Shown here piece by piece: positions 27,041-62,897 of a stretch of 64,000 nucleotides of DNA (position 1 is the first letter of the stretch; every line of letters starts with the position of its first letter). The position numbers were made by a program, and so were the translations under genes. The DNA is taken from contig NZ_CP036349.1 in assembly GCF_007753265.1 (NCBI RefSeq), positions 5,764,862 through 5,828,861 of the forward strand, written 5' to 3'. The notes under the pieces are model-generated. The model was not told the origin of the DNA, ran no database searches, and saw only the letters and a list, made by a program, of their open reading frames with translations. The stretch is from Botrimarina mediterranea. Its GTDB lineage: Bacteria > Planctomycetota > Planctomycetia > Pirellulales > Lacipirellulaceae.

Positions 27041-27060
27041 AAGGCGAGCCGGAAGCGTGA
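27041..27060. repeat. Left arm of a palindrome split by the insertion sequence
   Basis: AAGGCGAGCCGGAAGCGTGA is complementary to 28029-28048 with one mismatch (19 of 20). The arms directly abut both ends of the element, so the IS sits at the exact centre of the palindrome. Confidence 0.85.
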
Positions 27061-28028
27061 CAGGATTATGCAACTAGTAGCTGAGGGTTCTTTGCGAGCG
27101 AGCGGGTTCCGGCGATAAGGAGCTTGGCCTGGACCCAGTGTCGGACGCGGTGGAAGCGTCGGACCCAGGCGGGGAGCGAGGCGAGCCCGCCGCCGAAGGT
27201 GACCAGCGTCCCGAAGGAGGTCTCGATCGCCGTCCGCTGGCGGTAGAGAGCCGCCCCGAACGCCGTCCCCAACAGCTCGATGCTCCGCAGCCGACTGGGC
27301 GAATGTCGTTGGTGGCCCAAGCCTTTCCCCTTGCGTTTCTTCGCCACCAGCTGAAACCCTTCGGCTTGGGCCGCGTCGTAGAGCGGGTTGGCGTCGTACT
27401 CGGTGTCCGCCAGCAGGTAACCGCCGCCGGCAAGCCCTTCGATCAACCAGCGGGCCACGCGTTTCTCGCTGACGTTCATCGGTGAGAGGTCCCAGGCCAG
27501 CGGCATCGGCCCATCGCCCCAGATCACATGCAGCTTGTAGCCCAGCTGCTTGCCCCCGGCGCCACGGCCGTAGCCCGCGTCGGGGTCCTTGCTCACCAGA
27601 CTCACCGCGAGCGCCTTGCCATCGATCTTCTTGACGATCCCCTGGCCCAGGTTCAGCAGCCCGATCAGCCGCTGCTCCACGGCCGTCAGCAGCAGCACGC
27701 AAGCGGGCTTACGCAAGCGTCGGCTCAGCGTGCCTTGCGTCGGCAAAGGTTGAGGGCAGAGGTCGGTGGGCCAGTTCTCGGGGCACGCGGCCCAGGCGGT
27801 GGGGCGGTCGTGGACCACCGCCCACAGGTAAACCACCACGATGTCGCCGGTGGAGTACCTCCAACTCCCCCATCCCACGTCCAACTGTTTCACCAAACGG
27901 TACAATAACCGCCAGAGTTCGCGTTCCATCGGATCGTCTCCCCCTGCAAGGAATAGAATCTCTCCATGCAGAATGGGACGCGGACTCCCTCTTCGCCATC
28001 GGACCGTGCTAGCCCTTGCATAATCCTG
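27061..28028. mobile_element. Complete insertion sequence, IS4/IS5-type, 968 bases
   Basis: The ends are CAGGATTATGCAA at 27061 and its exact complement ending at 28028; similarity continues imperfectly to about base 21. A single transposase gene (27066-27929) fills the element. The flanks read GTGA and TTAC, which are not a direct repeat; the flanking DNA is instead palindromic (27041-27060 against 28029-28048). The same 13-base ends are found on the non-coding element at 17217-17457. Size, single gene and catalytic spacing fit the IS5 superfamily; assignment to a named subgroup needs a database comparison. Confidence 0.92.
27066..27929 (-). CDS. DDE transposase of the IS4/IS5 superfamily
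   Basis: 287 residues, apparently intact. The catalytic triad can be assigned to D103 (KKIDGKAL), D175 (YLLADTEYDA) and E236 in the Y-x2-R-x3-E signature YRQRTAIE. The N-terminal part (VYLWAVVHDRPTAWAA) is the usual helical DNA-binding region. The stop codon TAA lies inside the left terminal repeat, leaving no spare sequence. No frameshift is visible, so the element may still be active and may also mobilise the miniature copy at 17217. Confidence 0.93.
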   Translation of the reverse strand: MERELWRLLYRLVKQLDVGWGSWRYSTGDIVVVYLWAVVHDRPTAWAACPENWPTDLCPQPLPTQGTLSRRLRKPACVLLLTAVEQRLIGLLNLGQGIVKKIDGKALAVSLVSKDPDAGYGRGAGGKQLGYKLHVIWGDGPMPLAWDLSPMNVSEKRVARWLIEGLAGGGYLLADTEYDANPLYDAAQAEGFQLVAKKRKGKGLGHQRHSPSRLRSIELLGTAFGAALYRQRTAIETSFGTLVTFGGGLASLPAWVRRFHRVRHWVQAKLLIAGTRSLAKNPQLLVA

Positions 28029-28048
28029 TTACGCTTCCGGCTCGCCTT
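28029..28048. repeat. Right arm of the palindrome split by the insertion sequence
   Basis: TTACGCTTCCGGCTCGCCTT, complement of 27041-27060. The word GCTTCCGGCTCGCC is also found just after the miniature element at 17458. Confidence 0.85.
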
Positions 28049-35266: not shown

Positions 35267-35297
35267 GCGAGCATTCTACTCGCAGAATGGAGAATTC

Positions 35298-35374
35298 GGC
35301 GAGCCGGCGACGTTAGTCGTCGGTGGGAAGCGGGTACACGGGTTCCACCGACGACTAACGTCGCGCGCCTCGCC
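35298..35374. repeat. Palindrome with about 31-bp stem, GGCGAGCCGGCGACG type
   Basis: Same arms as the element at 2734, with CGCGCGCCTCGCC at the right end where others have CGCCGGCTCGCC. The spacer holds GGGTACACGG. It starts five bases after the stop codon of the SDR gene on the minus strand. Confidence 0.87.
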
Positions 35375-35378
35375 AAGC

Positions 35379-36218
35379 TCACCGCAACCGGCCGCCGCCA
35401 TCCACCGGTAGTACCACGCCCGTCATGAAGGGGTTCTCCACCAGCATCGCCACCGCGTGGGCGATGTGCTCGGCCTTGCCGTAGCCGCCCTCGTCGCCGG
35501 TGCGGATCAACGACACGTAACGCGCCTCGTCCTTGCGTTCGTCCGGTTCGTCCGGCTCGCCGGGCAGATGCTGGCAGATCACGGGACCCGGCAGCACCGC
35601 ATTCACCCGCACCCGCTTGTTGCGTCTCGACAGCTCGACCGCCAGCATCCGCGTCATGCCGGGAATCGCCGCCTTCGACGGGTGGTAGGCGGGGTAGTCG
35701 CGGTACGGCTTGCCATCGGGCGCCGTGGCGGCGTCGCCGAGATTGATGATCACGCCCCCCGCGTCTTGGTCGGCCATCCACAACCCCGCGTGCTTGGCGA
35801 GGACCAGCGGCGCCACGGTGTTCACGTCGAGGCACTTGCGGACGTCGCTCGCCGCGAACTCCTCGAACGGCGTCTCGGGCCAGATCGCGGCCGAGTTCAC
35901 CAGGATGTCGAGCACGCCGGCATGCTCGTCGCACGCCTCGCCGGTGCTAGCGAAGTGCCGGGCGACGCGGTGCACGAGGTCCTCGGCGGCGCCCTCGTCG
36001 GTCAGCTCGGCCTGGAAGACCGCGACATCGGCGCCGTAGCGCTCTTCCAAGAGGGCGCCCAGTTCATGGGCCTCGCCGAGCGAGGAATTGGCGTGAATCG
36101 CCACCCGGGCGCCCCGCCGGGCCAGCTCGATGGCGATCGCTTTTCCGACACGCCGAGCCCCGCCGGTCACCAAAGCGACCTGCCGCGCTAGCGTCGGGGG
36201 GAGCGGATCGGGGAGCAT
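35379..36218 (-). CDS. Short-chain dehydrogenase/reductase, pteridine-reductase-like
   Basis: 279 residues from ATG 36218, which fits the family start better than one 12 codons upstream. The Rossmann motif is VTGGARRVGKAIAIELARRG, the NAG-like motif is LVNSAAIWP, and the catalytic Tyr and Lys are in YPAYHPSKAA. TGGxRRxG and the ending TGVVLPVDGGGRLR are typical of pteridine reductase / FolM-type SDRs, which reduce dihydrobiopterin or folates with NADPH. The exact substrate is not certain. It is divergent from mtnA. Confidence 0.88.
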   Translation of the reverse strand: MLPDPLPPTLARQVALVTGGARRVGKAIAIELARRGARVAIHANSSLGEAHELGALLEERYGADVAVFQAELTDEGAAEDLVHRVARHFASTGEACDEHAGVLDILVNSAAIWPETPFEEFAASDVRKCLDVNTVAPLVLAKHAGLWMADQDAGGVIINLGDAATAPDGKPYRDYPAYHPSKAAIPGMTRMLAVELSRRNKRVRVNAVLPGPVICQHLPGEPDEPDERKDEARYVSLIRTGDEGGYGKAEHIAHAVAMLVENPFMTGVVLPVDGGGRLR

Positions 36219-36264
36219 GCGGTTAGTGTAGTCGATACCAGACGATAAACCCAATCACCTATTG

Positions 36265-36340
36265 GCGAGCCGGCGACGTAAGTCGTCGGTGGAACCCTGG
36301 TACCCGCTACCCACCGACGACTCACGTCGCCGGCTCGCCG
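36265..36340. repeat. Palindrome, GGCGAGCCGGCGACG type, between divergent genes
   Basis: Arms begin GGCGAGCCGGCGACGTAAGT and end with the complement at 36340; spacer GGTACCCGCT. This is the one well-formed member placed between two 5' ends (SDR 36218 and mtnA 36381), so it must lie in promoter or leader sequence rather than at a 3' end. Confidence 0.87.
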
Positions 36341-37868: not shown

Positions 37869-38183
37869 TCAGGCGGCAAACATCTCCGCCAGCGCGTCCA
37901 TCAGCTTCTTCGCCGTGGCGCCCTGCAGCTTGCTGACCTTCTTCACCAGCCGCTGCTTATCGACGGTCCGCAACTGATCAACAGCCGCGACGCCCGGCTT
38001 GCCGCCAACGCGGGTCTCGATGCGGAAGGGGTAACTGCGGCCGATCGTCAGCGGGACGACGATCACGGTGTTCAGGTGAGCGTTCAGCTCGTCGGGCGAC
38101 ACGATCACCGCAGGCCGCGTCTTACGAATCTCGCTCCCGATCGTCGGGTCGAGGTTCACTAGCCAGACTTCGAGGCGCTTCAT
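37869..38183 (-). CDS. mazF: MazF/PemK-type endoribonuclease toxin
   Basis: 104 residues from ATG 38183; the ATG overlaps the stop of mazE (ATGA). The core is the MazF pattern: EVWLVNLDPTIGSEIRKTRP, AVIVSPDELN, VIVVPLTIGR and QLRTVDKQRLVKK. MazF toxins cut mRNA (or tRNA/rRNA) at short sequences and halt translation; the conserved Arg of KTRP and the Thr/Ser of the PLT region take part in catalysis. The antitoxin is encoded directly upstream. The target sequence cannot be predicted. Confidence 0.93.
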   Translation of the reverse strand: MKRLEVWLVNLDPTIGSEIRKTRPAVIVSPDELNAHLNTVIVVPLTIGRSYPFRIETRVGGKPGVAAVDQLRTVDKQRLVKKVSKLQGATAKKLMDALAEMFAA

Positions 38184-38425
38184 TGCCACTGGCCATCGAA
38201 GTCGCCGATCGTCGCGTCCCAATCGCCGATCGCGTCGCCACCCTCGGCACGGCAAGCCGCCGCCGCGTCCGCCCAACCCAGCCGCGTCTTATTGACGGGC
38301 CGGATTACTACTCCAGCGGGCGTGACCTCCAGGTCCAACTCCGTCGAGAGCCCCGCCTGCTCAATCACTGCCTTCGGCAGGCGGATGCCCTGAGAATTGC
38401 CGATCTGGACGAGTTCGATTCGCAT
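38180..38425 (-). CDS. mazE: MazE-type antitoxin with AbrB/SpoVT DNA-binding fold
   Basis: 81 residues. The N-terminal AbrB-like swapped-hairpin domain is clear: ELVQIGNSQGIRLPKAVIEQ with LSTELDLEVTPAGVVIRP. The C-terminal part (EGGDAIGDWDATIGDFDGQW) is acidic and would wrap around and neutralise the toxin. MazE usually dimerises, binds MazF, and represses its own operon; a candidate operator lies at 38451-38476. The four-base overlap with mazF secures balanced translation. Confidence 0.92.
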   Translation of the reverse strand: MRIELVQIGNSQGIRLPKAVIEQAGLSTELDLEVTPAGVVIRPVNKTRLGWADAAAACRAEGGDAIGDWDATIGDFDGQWQ

Positions 38426-38630: not shown

Positions 38631-40709
38631 TTACCCCACATCCCCAAGCTCCAACGAATCCCCATACCGCCGCAGCATCTGCCGCCTGAGCAGTTTGTGC
38701 TCCGGCGCCTTGAGGCCCGGGTCTGCTGCGAACAACTCCGCAGCGGCGGTGCGGGCCTCGATCAGCACGTCGCGGTCGCGGACGAGGTCGGCGATGCGTA
38801 GCGGCGGCAGGCCCGTTTGGCGGTCGCCAAAGAGGTTGCCGGGGCCGCGCAAACGGAAGTCGATCTCGGCGAGCTCGAAGCCGTCGCTGGTTTGCTCGAA
38901 CGCTTGCAGGCGCGACAGCGCGGCGTCGGAGAGTTCGTGCGGCAACAACAAACCGCAGACGCCCGGGTGGCGGCCACGGCCGACGCGGCCTCGCAGCTGG
39001 TGCAGTTGGCTCAAACCAAAATGCTGTGGTGACGCGATCACCATCACCGTCGCGTTGGGCACATCGACGCCGACCTCGATCACGGTCGTGCTCACGAGCA
39101 CCTGCGTCGCGCCGCTGCGGAACTTTTCCATCACGGCGTCCTTTTCCACCGGCGAAAGACGGCCGTGCATCAGGCCGAGCCGGCAACCCGCCAACTCACC
39201 GTGCGTCAGTTCGTCGAACGAACGCTGCGCGCTCTGGGCGTCGATCGCTTCGGAGTCGTCGATCAGCGGCGCCACGACATAAGCCTGCCTGCCGTCGCCG
39301 AGCTGCTTGCGGACGTGCCCCCACCACTTCGTTTCGTTCTGCGGCTCGACGAGATACGTCTTCACCGGCTGGCGCCCCGGCGGCATGTCCTTGATGCTCG
39401 ACGTTTCCAGGTCGCCGAACTGCGTCATCGAAAGCGTCCGCGGGATCGGCGTCGCGGTCATCACCAAGTAGTGCGGCGAACGGTCCCCGCTCCGCAGCAG
39501 CGCCCGCTGACGGACGCCGAACTTGTGCTGCTCATCAATGACGGCAAGGCCGAGCTTTGCGAACTCGACCTTCTCTTGCAACAAGGCATGCGTGCCGATC
39601 GCAAGGTCCACATCGCCCGCGGCGATGCCCGCGCGAACCTGCGACTTCTCCGCCTCGCTCATGCCGCCCACGAGCAAACGCGACCGCACACGGCTCGCCT
39701 TGAGCATCGCGGCGAGCGTCTGGTTGTGCTGGCGGGCGAGCACCTCGGTCGGCGCGAGCAGCACCGCTTGCCAGCCGCTGGCGACCGTGGCGAGCATCGC
39801 GTAGAGCGCGACGATCGTCTTGCCCGAGCCTACGTCCCCTTGCAGAAGACGGTTCATCGGCTGATCGCTGGCGAGGTCGGCGGCCACGTCGTCGATCGCC
39901 GCTTGCTGCCCCGGCGTCAGCTCGAACGGCAGCAGCCGCTGGATGCGGGCGTCGAGCCGCGTGTCGATGACGATCTCCGGCGCGCTGAACGACACGCTCT
40001 GCTGGTGCCGCCGCGCGGCGAGCGCGAGCTGCAACACGAACAACTCTTGAAACACAAACCGCCGCCGCCCCGCCTCGCGGTTTGCCTCGTCTTTGGGCTT
40101 ATGGATCGCACGCAGCGCGTCGCCGATCGGCAGCAAGTCGTGCTTCTGTCGTAGTGCGGCGCTGAAGACCTCGTCGGGCAGGTCGGCAAAGCCATCGACC
40201 GCCGCGGTTACGAGCCGCCGCATGATGTGCTGCGGCACGCCTTCGGTGAGCGAGTAGACCGGCGACAACCCTTCGCTCGCCGGGTCGTCCGCCGCATCGT
40301 CGCTGAGCCACACAATCCGCGGGTGCACCATCTCCCACCGCAAGCCGGCGAGCTTCGGCTTGCCTGAGAGCTGCACACGCTTGCCGATCTTGAATTTGTC
40401 GCGCAAGAAGAGCTGGTTGAACCACATCGCCCGCATGGCGCCGGTTTCGTCCTCGACGACGACACCAAGCCGGCTCTTACCAAACCCCGTGCCGCGCGAC
40501 TCCACGTCAATCACTTCGCCCGCCACCGTCTGCGGTAGCTCGGCCTCAAGATCGGCGATCTTCCGCCGGTCGCGAAAGTCCTCGTAGTCACGCGGGAAAT
40601 GAAACAGCAGGTCCGCGACATGATGCATCCCAATCCCCGCCAGCGCATCCACAACCCGCCGCTGCACGCGCGGGAGCTGGGCGATCGGTGTTCCAAGGTC
40701 GGGAGCCAT
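38631..40709 (-). CDS. recG: ATP-dependent DNA helicase RecG
   Basis: 692 residues. An N-terminal wedge/OB region (PQTVAGEVIDVESRGTGFGK, AMWFNQLFLRDKFKIGKRVQ) precedes a superfamily 2 helicase core: Walker A RLLQGDVGSGKTIVALYA, VLLAPTEVLARQHNQT, motif II VIDEQHKFGV and MTATPIPRTLSMTQFGDLE. The C-terminal part has LVSTTVIEVGVDVPNATVMV, QLHQLRGRVGRG and DFRLRGPGNLFGDRQTG, all specific for RecG. It reverses stalled replication forks and processes D- and R-loops. Residue 1 is an ATG at 40709. Confidence 0.98.
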   Translation of the reverse strand: MAPDLGTPIAQLPRVQRRVVDALAGIGMHHVADLLFHFPRDYEDFRDRRKIADLEAELPQTVAGEVIDVESRGTGFGKSRLGVVVEDETGAMRAMWFNQLFLRDKFKIGKRVQLSGKPKLAGLRWEMVHPRIVWLSDDAADDPASEGLSPVYSLTEGVPQHIMRRLVTAAVDGFADLPDEVFSAALRQKHDLLPIGDALRAIHKPKDEANREAGRRRFVFQELFVLQLALAARRHQQSVSFSAPEIVIDTRLDARIQRLLPFELTPGQQAAIDDVAADLASDQPMNRLLQGDVGSGKTIVALYAMLATVASGWQAVLLAPTEVLARQHNQTLAAMLKASRVRSRLLVGGMSEAEKSQVRAGIAAGDVDLAIGTHALLQEKVEFAKLGLAVIDEQHKFGVRQRALLRSGDRSPHYLVMTATPIPRTLSMTQFGDLETSSIKDMPPGRQPVKTYLVEPQNETKWWGHVRKQLGDGRQAYVVAPLIDDSEAIDAQSAQRSFDELTHGELAGCRLGLMHGRLSPVEKDAVMEKFRSGATQVLVSTTVIEVGVDVPNATVMVIASPQHFGLSQLHQLRGRVGRGRHPGVCGLLLPHELSDAALSRLQAFEQTSDGFELAEIDFRLRGPGNLFGDRQTGLPPLRIADLVRDRDVLIEARTAAAELFAADPGLKAPEHKLLRRQMLRRYGDSLELGDVG

Positions 40710-40722
40710 GGAAGGAGTTTAG

Positions 40723-40751
40723 CCACAGATGGACACAGATGAACGCGGATG
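40723..40751. repeat. CCACAGATG inverted repeat, copy downstream of the macro-domain gene
   Basis: The sequence CCACAGATGGACACAGATGA then ACGCGGATG matches the complement of 41243-41272 at 26 of 29 positions. It lies between recG's start and the macro-domain gene's 3' end. Confidence 0.85.
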
Positions 40752-40780
40752 CAGTTTTGAGGGGCTACATCGACCCGCGA

Positions 40781-41245
40781 TCAACGCCGCCAGATCACGA
40801 TACGCACGTCGCCATCGTAATCCAATGATGACAGGGCTTCCTGCATCCACTGTTGAACGACCTCTTTCTTTCGACCACCTGAACCAGCTCCGATAAGAGG
40901 GAACGCGATCGACTTGAATCTATGCGTCTGGACTAATTTTATGGCGTTCTGAACCGACTCCTTCGTCGCGTACTGGCTTCCTTGCCATAACAAGTTGATG
41001 CCAGCGACATGGATAATGCCACGGAAAGGCAACCGACCGGCGGTCGTCAGTCGAGCCTCACCCAAAGCCATCGGCCCTGTCCTTCCGATCTCGCGGAATG
41101 GCTGTAAACCACCTCGCTTCTTGATGGCGCCGGACACGCCTTGCGGTAGCAGCAACCACCACGGGATGACATTCCGATTCCAAGCATTGACGATTACGTC
41201 AACATCTTGGTCGAGCAGGTCTCCCTCAGTGATTTCCAATCTCAT
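40781..41245 (-). CDS. Macro-domain protein (ADP-ribose binding)
   Basis: 154 residues, a single macro domain. LEITEGDLLDQDVDVIVNAW has the conserved GDI/GDL and VNA segments, followed by GVSGAIKKRGG (ADP-ribose pocket loop), GEARLTTAGRLPFRGIIHVAG and SIAFPLIGAGSGG. Such domains bind ADP-ribose or remove it from proteins or DNA. VNAWNRNVIPWW, where many have VNAAN, is unusual. The start codon lies in the right inverted repeat (41243-41272) and the 3' end lies 30 bases from the left copy, so the gene is bracketed by repeats and may be a mobile cassette. Confidence 0.92.
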   Translation of the reverse strand: MRLEITEGDLLDQDVDVIVNAWNRNVIPWWLLLPQGVSGAIKKRGGLQPFREIGRTGPMALGEARLTTAGRLPFRGIIHVAGINLLWQGSQYATKESVQNAIKLVQTHRFKSIAFPLIGAGSGGRKKEVVQQWMQEALSSLDYDGDVRIVIWRR

Positions 41246-41272
41246 CCGCGTTTATCCGTGTTCATCTGTGGT
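41243..41272. repeat. CCACAGATG inverted repeat containing the macro gene's start codon
   Basis: On the minus strand it reads ACCACAGATGAACACGGATA then AACGCGGATG, and its last ATG is the initiation codon of the macro-domain gene. It therefore also provides the ribosome-binding region. Confidence 0.85.
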
Positions 41273-41283
41273 TTCCTACCTTC

Positions 41284-41727
41284 TCACAAAAACTGCTGAT
41301 ACGCCGCGACCGCCAGCTCATCGCAGCGATCGTTCTCGGGATGTCCGCTGTGGCCCGCGACACGGGTGTACTTGATCTGGTGCTGGGCGGAGAGCTCGTC
41401 GAGTTGGCGCCAGAGGTCTTCGTTCTTGACCTCCACCAGCCGGCCCTTCTCTTTGCGTTTCCAGCCATTGCGTTTCCAGCCCGCCATCCATTCGCTGAGG
41501 CCCTTGCCGACATAGACGCTGTCGGTGAACAGCTCCACCTCGGTCGGCCGCGTCAGCGTCTTGAGGCCCTCGACGACGGCTTGCAGTTCCATGCGGTTGT
41601 TGGTGGTGAGCTTCTCCCCGCCGGAGCGCTCGAGCTTTTTGCCGGTCGCGGGGTGCACCAGCAGAAACGCCCAGCCGCCGGGGCCGGGGTTCCCGCTGCA
41701 ACCGCCGTCGGTGTAGAGGTGGACCAA
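41284..41727 (-). CDS. rnhA: Ribonuclease HI
   Basis: 147 residues. The acidic catalytic residues are D7 (LYTDGGCSGNPGPGGW), E47 (NNRMELQAV), D69 (ELFTDSVYV) and D136 (ENDRCDELA); H126 is in VAGHSGHPEN. The basic protrusion WMAGWKRNGWKRKEKG that grips the hybrid is present. It cuts the RNA strand of RNA-DNA hybrids during replication. The gene is divergent from the histone-deacetylase-like gene and lies upstream of the macro-domain gene on the same strand. Confidence 0.98.
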   Translation of the reverse strand: MVHLYTDGGCSGNPGPGGWAFLLVHPATGKKLERSGGEKLTTNNRMELQAVVEGLKTLTRPTEVELFTDSVYVGKGLSEWMAGWKRNGWKRKEKGRLVEVKNEDLWRQLDELSAQHQIKYTRVAGHSGHPENDRCDELAVAAYQQFL

Positions 41728-62100: not shown

Positions 62101-62125
62101 AGTCAAGCGTTAACCCGAAAAGGAT

Positions 62126-62236
62126 TAACCACGAAGGAACTAAGGAACAAAGTAAAGACTTCTTTATTCGCGCTGATCCGCAATATTCGCGGGCTCTCTT
62201 TTTTTAAACCTCCGTTCCTTAGTTCCTTTGTGGTTC
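62126..62236. repeat. Inverted repeat, TAACCACGAAGGAACTAAGG type
   Basis: Left arm TAACCACGAAGGAACTAAGG then AAC; right arm GTTCCTTAGTTCCTTTGTGG then TT. It lies between the sigma factor and kinase genes; its right arm touches the sigma factor's stop codon (62235). Confidence 0.78.
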
Positions 62237-62897
62237 AACCCCCTTCGTTTCCTTCGTTCCGTTGTGGTTCCAAATCGGAAAGCCGTTCGCGAAGACGGCG
62301 CATGGCGCGGAGGTGCCGCATGCTCGCGGCTTGGATGCTGAGGCCGAGGGCTTCGGCCGCTTCGCTGTTGGTGAGGCGTTCGAAGTGCCGCATCAGGATG
62401 ATCTCTTGATCGAGCTCTTCGAGTTCGCCTACCGCCTCGGCGAAGCGGCGCTGCAGCTCGCGCCACGTTGCGGCCGCGGCGGGCGTCAATTCGCCGTCGG
62501 CGAGTTGGGCGGCGAGGTCGAGCACCGACTCCTCATCGTTGCGCGTCGCCCCGGCGAGCGGCTGCTCGCGGTCGATGCTCCGCCGCGCGGCGACCCGGTG
62601 CCGACGGTGCGCGTCGATCAGCCGGTCCTTCGCCATCTGCCGCAGCCACAAATGAAACGGCATCACCGGGTCGGCGAGGTAGTCCGCCAGCCGGCGGTTC
62701 GCCTCCACCAGCACGTCTTGAACGATGTCGCTAGCGTCCACGCGGCGCTCGAGCACCCGGTCCATCCGCAGGTCGATCATCCGCCGCACCGCGGCCCGAT
62801 GGCGGTCGAAGAGCCGGTCGCGTGCGTCGGCGTCCCCCTCACGCACTCCATCCAGCAGCTTCTGCGTGTCGTCGGAGCGGGGCCAGATCGAGGTCAT
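62235..62897 (-). CDS. ECF-like RNA polymerase sigma factor linked to a Ser/Thr kinase
   Basis: 220 residues from ATG 62897. Region 2 is LFDRHRAAVRRMIDLRMDRV and VDASDIVQDVLVEANRRLAD with HLWLRQMAKDRLIDAHRRHR; region 4 is LEELDQEIILMRHFERLTNS and EAAEALGLSIQAASMRHLRA. It directs RNA polymerase to a set of promoters. There is no anti-sigma gene; a membrane kinase gene follows instead, as in planctomycete STK-ECF groups. Upstream is divergent from the BBP7-type gene. Confidence 0.93.
   Translation of the reverse strand: MTSIWPRSDDTQKLLDGVREGDADARDRLFDRHRAAVRRMIDLRMDRVLERRVDASDIVQDVLVEANRRLADYLADPVMPFHLWLRQMAKDRLIDAHRRHRVAARRSIDREQPLAGATRNDEESVLDLAAQLADGELTPAAAATWRELQRRFAEAVGELEELDQEIILMRHFERLTNSEAAEALGLSIQAASMRHLRAMRRLRERLSDLEPQRNEGNEGG

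Follow-up and report, generated by a model that had tools for sequence, protein, structure and literature searches.

A macro-domain gene between inverted decamer arrays in Botrimarina mediterranea, and a possible class of arm-bounded small-gene elements

Why should a small macro-domain gene lie between recG and rnhA, enclosed by the two halves of an inverted repeat, one of which carries its start codon? The question is raised by a stretch of 64,000 nucleotides from the genome of Botrimarina mediterranea, analysed here at its full length and referred to as the window. The main features of the locus are collected in Table 1. A first-pass annotation, made from the sequence alone, had reported an inverted repeat around the gene, an initiation codon supplied by that repeat and a setting within a recG-rnhA neighbourhood. 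These observations are confirmed, with the small correction that the second arm ends at 41271 and not at 41272, while the interpretation then offered is partly supported. The arms are 29 nt each, complementary at 26 of 29 positions (90%) and separated by 491 nt, and each is composed of three decamer units, CCACAGATGN ACACNGATNN ACACNGAT. The ATG of the macro gene (41243-41245) falls inside the gene-proximal arm, and recG, the macro gene and rnhA are all read from the minus strand. The macro ORF is recognized by the Pfam Macro family (E 1.3e-19), with 70.7 bits for PF01661 against a gathering score of 22. A MazE/MazF-like pair is found at 37869-38425, just downstream of recG (Pfam PemK_toxin 6.4e-27, MazE_antitoxin 3.8e-9).

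Table 1. Position of the macro-domain gene, its arms and neighbouring features in the window
Feature	Position	Strand	Remark
recG helicase, downstream neighbour of the macro gene	38631-40709	-	
Outer tetranucleotide TTAG	40719-40722	+	adjoins the distal arm
Distal (downstream) arm CCACAGATGGACACAGATGAACGCGGATG	40723-40751	+	inverted relative to the gene-proximal arm
Macro-domain protein, 154 aa, VNAWNRN subfamily	40781-41245	-	ORF and Pfam
Gene-proximal (upstream) arm CCACAGATGAACACGGATAAACGCGGATG (minus-strand reading)	41243-41271	-	supplies the macro start codon with its final three bases
Outer tetranucleotide GAAA (minus strand)	41272-41275	-	adjoins the gene-proximal arm
rnhA (RNase H), upstream neighbour of the macro gene	41284-41727	-	
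Inverted pair without a gene, from a different arm family, CCACGAAGGAACTAAGGAAC	62122-62240	.	type that brackets a GxxExxY gene at about 946130 in the same genome

The strength of a bracket was expressed as the highest-scoring inverted match that the 300 nt upstream of a gene make with the 300 nt downstream. The macro arms score 20; of 6642 mismatched upstream/downstream pairs taken from 82 macro loci, 0.02% do at least as well. Together with the genome-wide number of arms compared with the reversed pattern, this score rules out a chance bracket. A 14-nt piece of the arm taken alone is not significant within the window: it occurs 5 times where 3.09 occurrences are expected, and 20 of 100 shuffles reach that count. 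In the whole genome (G000; 5.87 Mb, one contig), the 28-nt arm pattern is matched 29 times with up to three mismatches and its reversed control not once, and 28 of these matches form part of 20 inverted pairs. The inverted partner of the 29th match, at 4129498, was identified by eye; the region concerned (4129498-4130036), in which two short elements flank an ORF, is excluded from the analyses of the 20 pairs. The interiors of the latter range from 6 to 493 nt (139 nt or less in 18 cases) and have almost no mutual similarity, the sole exceptions being two 17-nt matches that stem from a nested palindrome. Long ORFs occupy two of them, the macro gene in one case and, in the other, a 124-aa ORF that matches no family; most elements are gene-less. 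Of the 40 outer ends of these arms, 28 are bordered by GGAA or TTAG.

The arm type extends to other genomes. It occurs in 21 of 117 genomes of the order (at most one mismatch), in 8 of 14 genomes of genus g4 (at most two mismatches), in 22 of 199 genomes of the phylum (exact match) and in 43 stretches of viral contigs, which possibly include host DNA. The reversed pattern was again without match in the order, g4 and phylum searches. With a stricter score, 62 of the 126 arms at phylum and viral-contig loci are paired within 1.5 kb, making 31 pairs, a count from which partners can be hidden by contig ends and by the threshold; the interior exceeds 200 nt in four of these pairs. A tandem repetition of an arm unit, the decamer GAACACNGAT, forms a long run in another genome (G137, contig C269, 8669-8816).

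The search for the same repeat around other genes, which the first-pass annotation had proposed, thus disclosed a genome-wide family of paired repeats that brackets further small genes, several of them starting within the arm. GxxExxY genes lie inside window-type arms in four genomes (G023, G008, G019 and G047), as judged by a family match for locus L164 and for the place in G047, and by sequence likeness for the remaining two; PF13366 is confirmed for L164, L246 and the L166 place. Window-type arms also contain a 182-aa ORF in G007 and, in G165, a 143-aa ORF for which the sole family hint is a sub-threshold Mrr-like match, and a DUF2199 gene is present at a site in G003 with degenerate arms. 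The start codon belongs to the arm for the macro gene of two species and for L163, L164, L165, L169, L246 and L427, and lies outside the arm for L019, L062 and L166.

Matching sites in congeners reveal what becomes of such elements with time, with the proviso that most of these sites were located through arm searches, which favours occupied ones. The arms remain in place; what lies between them is inverted in one clear case, and elsewhere cannot be aligned, contains a nested element or has been lost. The clear case is site 374479, where the 82-nt interior is inverted in G001 between flanks of the same sense; 50 of 82 positions are identical in the inverted orientation and 25 of 82 in the flank sense, for a shuffle maximum of 37. 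At sites 5373814 and 4644918, the element is present in both species (G000 and G001) with interiors devoid of likeness, and at site 5381131 a weak likeness is found between species (p 0.026). Site 299977 measures 80 bp in G000; in G003, it comprises several hundred bp and a DUF2199 gene. The element with a GxxExxY gene at site 5081412 is shared by G000 and G001, and corresponds to a single arm in G003 and to nothing in G002. Finally, the element at site 3886133 occurs in G000 and in G001, where another element is nested in it, and is absent from G003 and G002.

The same type of bracket was sought around two families of small genes. As a control, 30 rnhA loci gave a maximum score of 12, equal to the 99% point of their own null, and none exceeded it. 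For GxxExxY genes (PF13366), 24 of 28 loci exceed this ceiling of 12 and 17 of 28 exceed their own 99% null (17.45), which is stricter because shared arms raise it; two of the initial 30 loci were dropped for too little flank. A second set of 21 GxxExxY genes, scored without a null in a slightly different flank window and having at least two genes in common with the first set, contains 19 with a score of at least 13, the exceptions being L247 and L255. For S23 genes (PF05635) located outside rRNA (L313-L342), 27 of 30 are above 12 and 26 of 30 above their own 99% null. The arms consist of units, read by eye, of 9-10 nt around GxxExxY genes and mostly of 7-8 nt around S23 genes, which are alike within a locus and different between loci; the six GxxExxY genes of the Botrimarina genome alone display at least five unit types. 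One of these genes, at about 5081412, is enclosed by a GC-richer variant of the window's arms and has its start codon in the arm. The arrays at the macro locus conform to the proposed GxxExxY type, with about three 9-10-nt units on each side tightly bounding the gene; the gene inside is a macro gene and not GxxExxY. In the open-licence PMC literature, a paper on the Coxiella intervening sequence apart, nothing was found on such elements, and the presence of such brackets around GxxExxY and S23 genes points to a little-described class of small-gene cassette.

Given these data, our leading interpretation, held tentatively and with slightly less than even confidence, is that the macro gene occupies a small inverted-arm element belonging to a class of arm-bounded small genes that resembles the intervening sequences (IVSs) of rRNA, with GxxExxY as candidate enzyme. 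An arm is made of three iterated decamers, and a pair of arms bounds a variable interior. The wider IVS-like class would comprise small genes enclosed by inverted arrays whose units measure 7-10 nt, chiefly the genes for GxxExxY (of the PD-(D/E)XK family) and S23. The arms would be ends acted on by an enzyme, possibly a GxxExxY protein encoded between like arms, here by the gene at about 5081412, and acting in trans; it is the proximity of these genes to the arms that suggests the link. Gene-bearing units such as the macro element may have arisen when a small gene was captured by, or inserted into, a pair of arms. At the RNA level, the two arms can pair as the stem of a structure whose loop holds the gene, like the intervening sequences of 23S rRNA. 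Mobility of the elements is likewise something that we infer. The small mobile cassette imagined earlier finds support in the paired repeat family, in the other genes that it brackets and in the turnover among congeners, but not in the fixed location of the macro gene at rnhA-recG nor in the different arms of G007.

It is on this last point that the distribution of the macro gene bears. Close homologues exist in 5 of 59 relatives, the Botrimarina genome included, and the gene is present in 3 of 43 genomes of the family (E 1e-20), each time between rnhA and recG. At 22 of 30 family loci, recG was found beside rnhA, and the macro gene is present at 3 of these 22. The three proteins group in a single clade (100/93, from a bootstrap that had not completely converged). 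Brackets are rare around macro genes in general: 5 of 82 testable loci score above 12, four of them clearly, and 78 are not clearly bracketed (two of 84 loci had too little flank to be included). The clear cases are the two Botrimarina loci with the window's arm type, L123 with ACGCGGAG-type units, and G007, in which the bracket is made of S23-type units (AGGTCGG/AGGTCAG) and a hairpin, the repeat of the window being absent; the fifth, L102, owes its score to a distant A-rich match. At two further loci (L105, 3793-4283; L116, 5983-6450), inverted matches of 11-12 nt, which may be due to chance, are situated directly at the ends of the macro gene. As to whether relatives carry the gene at the same place without the repeat, the answer is therefore mixed: the place is the same in all three, and the member from another genus, G007, has an inverted pair of its own. 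The occurrence of the macro gene at rnhA-recG with other arms in a second genus is not predicted by a simple model in which arms carry the gene. Either the gene is old at this place and has been lost many times, or it has entered there repeatedly, and either way Botrimarina and the other genus have different brackets.

These facts lend weight to the most serious alternative, which we nevertheless consider unlikely, according to which the macro gene is a long-standing occupant of the space between rnhA and recG, whereas the arms, as palindromes of intergenic DNA, turn over on their own and happen to enclose it. The shared location and single clade of the family proteins and the dissimilar arms of Botrimarina and G007 are in its favour. 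So is the abundance of inverted repeats: many gene-less rnhA-recG intervals contain palindromes of other families (by eye), and the window itself contains 96 inverted pairs of at least 20 nt within 1.5 kb. Among inverted repeats of the window are a 68-nt pair (35297-35364 / 36273-36340, 93% complementary) that flanks an ORF at 35379-36254, a 33-nt pair (27041-27073 / 28016-28048, 97% complementary, 942 nt apart) and recurring palindromes of the GGCGAGCCGG type. The arms of the present family, however, are paired and not single, and because they come in pairs, the enclosure of a gene already in place calls for a special event. Vertical descent would also demand losses in G002, in G003 and in all other members of the family that lack the gene, given that 3 of 43 genomes hold the gene. 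Composition weighs against long residence as well, GC3 being 0.60-0.68 in the macro gene and 0.85-0.93 in its neighbours, as does divergence, four-fold sites differing between G000 and G001 by 0.655 in the macro gene, 0.313 in rnhA and 0.386 in recG. A local regime may explain these values, since interiors that lack a gene have a low GC too (0.513). Composition and divergence do not decide the origin of the macro gene, and a recent foreign origin is at most one possible reading of its low GC, the gene-less interiors being as low.

A variant that we regard as rather unlikely makes the arms chromosomal docking sites that would themselves stay fixed as small genes are inserted, inverted and replaced between them, in a miniature exchange of cassettes that would be IVS-like although located outside rRNA. 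Each arm type would have its specific enzyme, encoded between arms of that type, GxxExxY serving arrays of 9-10-nt units and S23 those of 7-8-nt units. The macro site would then have been held by both systems, and its arms are indeed of GxxExxY type in Botrimarina and of S23 type in the other genus.

Could the arms act as RNA? The cotranscript of rnhA and recG would then contain an IVS-like stem, either cut by RNase III or masking the macro start, and mobility would be beside the point. The three genes are co-oriented, and the predicted fold of the whole element has both arms paired (-229.6 kcal/mol, z -5.8), in keeping with the IVS of Coxiella, which has terminal inverted repeats forming a 28-bp stem and is excised by RNase III (PMC4990558). 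The z-score is not independent evidence, because shuffles lose any inverted repeat. Moreover, arms match no better within elements than between them (23.25 versus 23.66 of 28, p 0.94), and therefore give no sign of selection on their pairing; arm-to-arm covariation of an RNA stem likewise finds no support in the G000 elements. Most elements being gene-less, a role confined to RNA strikes us as quite improbable.

Two readings fare much worse. That the arms are part of, or are carried by, a conventional MITE mobilized by a DDE transposase is suggested by G138, where 15 copies of the arm pair lie within a repeat that ends in terminal inverted repeats and shows 8-bp target duplications (by eye), but the outer flanks of the G000 elements have neither such ends nor target duplications and their interiors are not mutual copies, which makes hitch-hiking very improbable. 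The ends of the G138 element (L293-L307), which presumably resembles IS66, read GTAACCGTTCAC...GTGAACGGTTAC, with the window-type arm pair carried inside. These multiple copies were considered as direct proof of mobility of the arms and rejected, since they ride inside another MITE; they are not counted for mobility. Plasmids, considered as a possible source of near-identical sequence pairs that differ by a GxxExxY element, yielded 7 records, each below 60% identity.

The other reading, a defence or toxin-antitoxin module, had been put forward in the first-pass annotation, along with an unusual pocket and a proposed test of relatedness to DarG, and calls for a closer look at the protein. Macro domains usually display the motif NAAN...GGGVAGAI. 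The protein of the window has the macro fold in common with TTHA0132-like and MacroD-type domains, and has VNAWNRN...PWWLLLPQGVSGAI where these have the usual motif. The VNAWNRN motif is real, but it is no oddity, being the (nearly) invariant signature of a broad macro subfamily: in an alignment of 38 sequences chosen from the window and 80 loci, N20, W22, N23, R24, N25, P28, W29, W30, P34, Q35 and G36 are invariant. The structure model has a mean pLDDT of 89.6, and the closest solved structure is TTHA0132 (2dx6; profile 3.4e-24, fold TM 0.87, 32% identity), so that the protein is likely to bind or hydrolyse ADP-ribose, as judged from the model. Macro domains occur in DarTG, and a weak DarG-like patch is present here, confined to residues 99-142 in the NF048014 profile (30.5 bits against a cut-off of 250) and to residues 97-144 in the PADLOC match. 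All NCBIfam matches are below cut-off, and a DarG macrodomain ranks 35th by fold (TM 0.78). No DarT-like partner was found: the neighbours in the window are recG and rnhA, and the largest cluster of genes shared within 2.5 kb covers 5 of 80 loci, which does not amount to a recurrent partner. Identity with DarG is refuted by the profile score, the short patch, the structural rank and the lack of such a partner, and the idea of a defence module, for the same reasons, is barely credible.

The interest of the locus lies less in the macro gene than in the class that its bracket reveals. Proteins of the GxxExxY and S23 families are common and lack a settled role, as stated for S23 in PMC4990558. If both were mostly encoded between matched inverted arrays, the same arms also occurring in these genomes empty or around other genes, they could be tested as enzymes of small mobile or cassette-exchange elements. 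Were this true, the intervening sequences of rRNA would be one special case of the class, and the presence of unrelated small genes within conserved operons such as rnhA-recG would be explained.

How do these elements relate to known systems? Like MITEs and other non-autonomous elements, they are short, intergenic and present in many copies, and have terminal inverted repeats. They differ from MITEs in that the interiors of the G000 elements are not copies of one another (copies are seen in G138, inside the other MITE), and in that no signal of target-site duplication was detected in the 20 G000 elements for lengths of 4-9 nt at offsets 0-8. REPINs, or REP doublets, associated with RAYT transposases, resemble the present elements in that short repeats located between genes form inverted pairs, are separated by spacers of variable sequence or length and persist at the same sites; window-type arms, unlike the palindromic hairpins of REP sequences, are tandem arrays of units that hold genes.

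The closest resemblance is with the IVSs of 23S rRNA. In Coxiella burnetii, the IVS is 428 nt long, its terminal inverted repeats make a 28-bp stem, heptamers are repeated ahead of the start codon of the S23 gene, RNase III cuts the IVS out, and a mobile element or the remnant of a transposition has been suspected (PMC4990558). In both systems, a small ORF is flanked by terminal inverted repeats that measure about 28 bp, the start codon is preceded by short tandem units, and a stem can form with the ORF in its loop. The window element is located between rnhA and recG and not in a 23S rRNA gene, and its ORF encodes a macro domain and not S23 (PF05635). Because the architecture is common whereas place and gene differ, it is not filed as an IVS and may be termed IVS-like at most, with decamers as units and within a putative class that also houses GxxExxY and unrelated genes.
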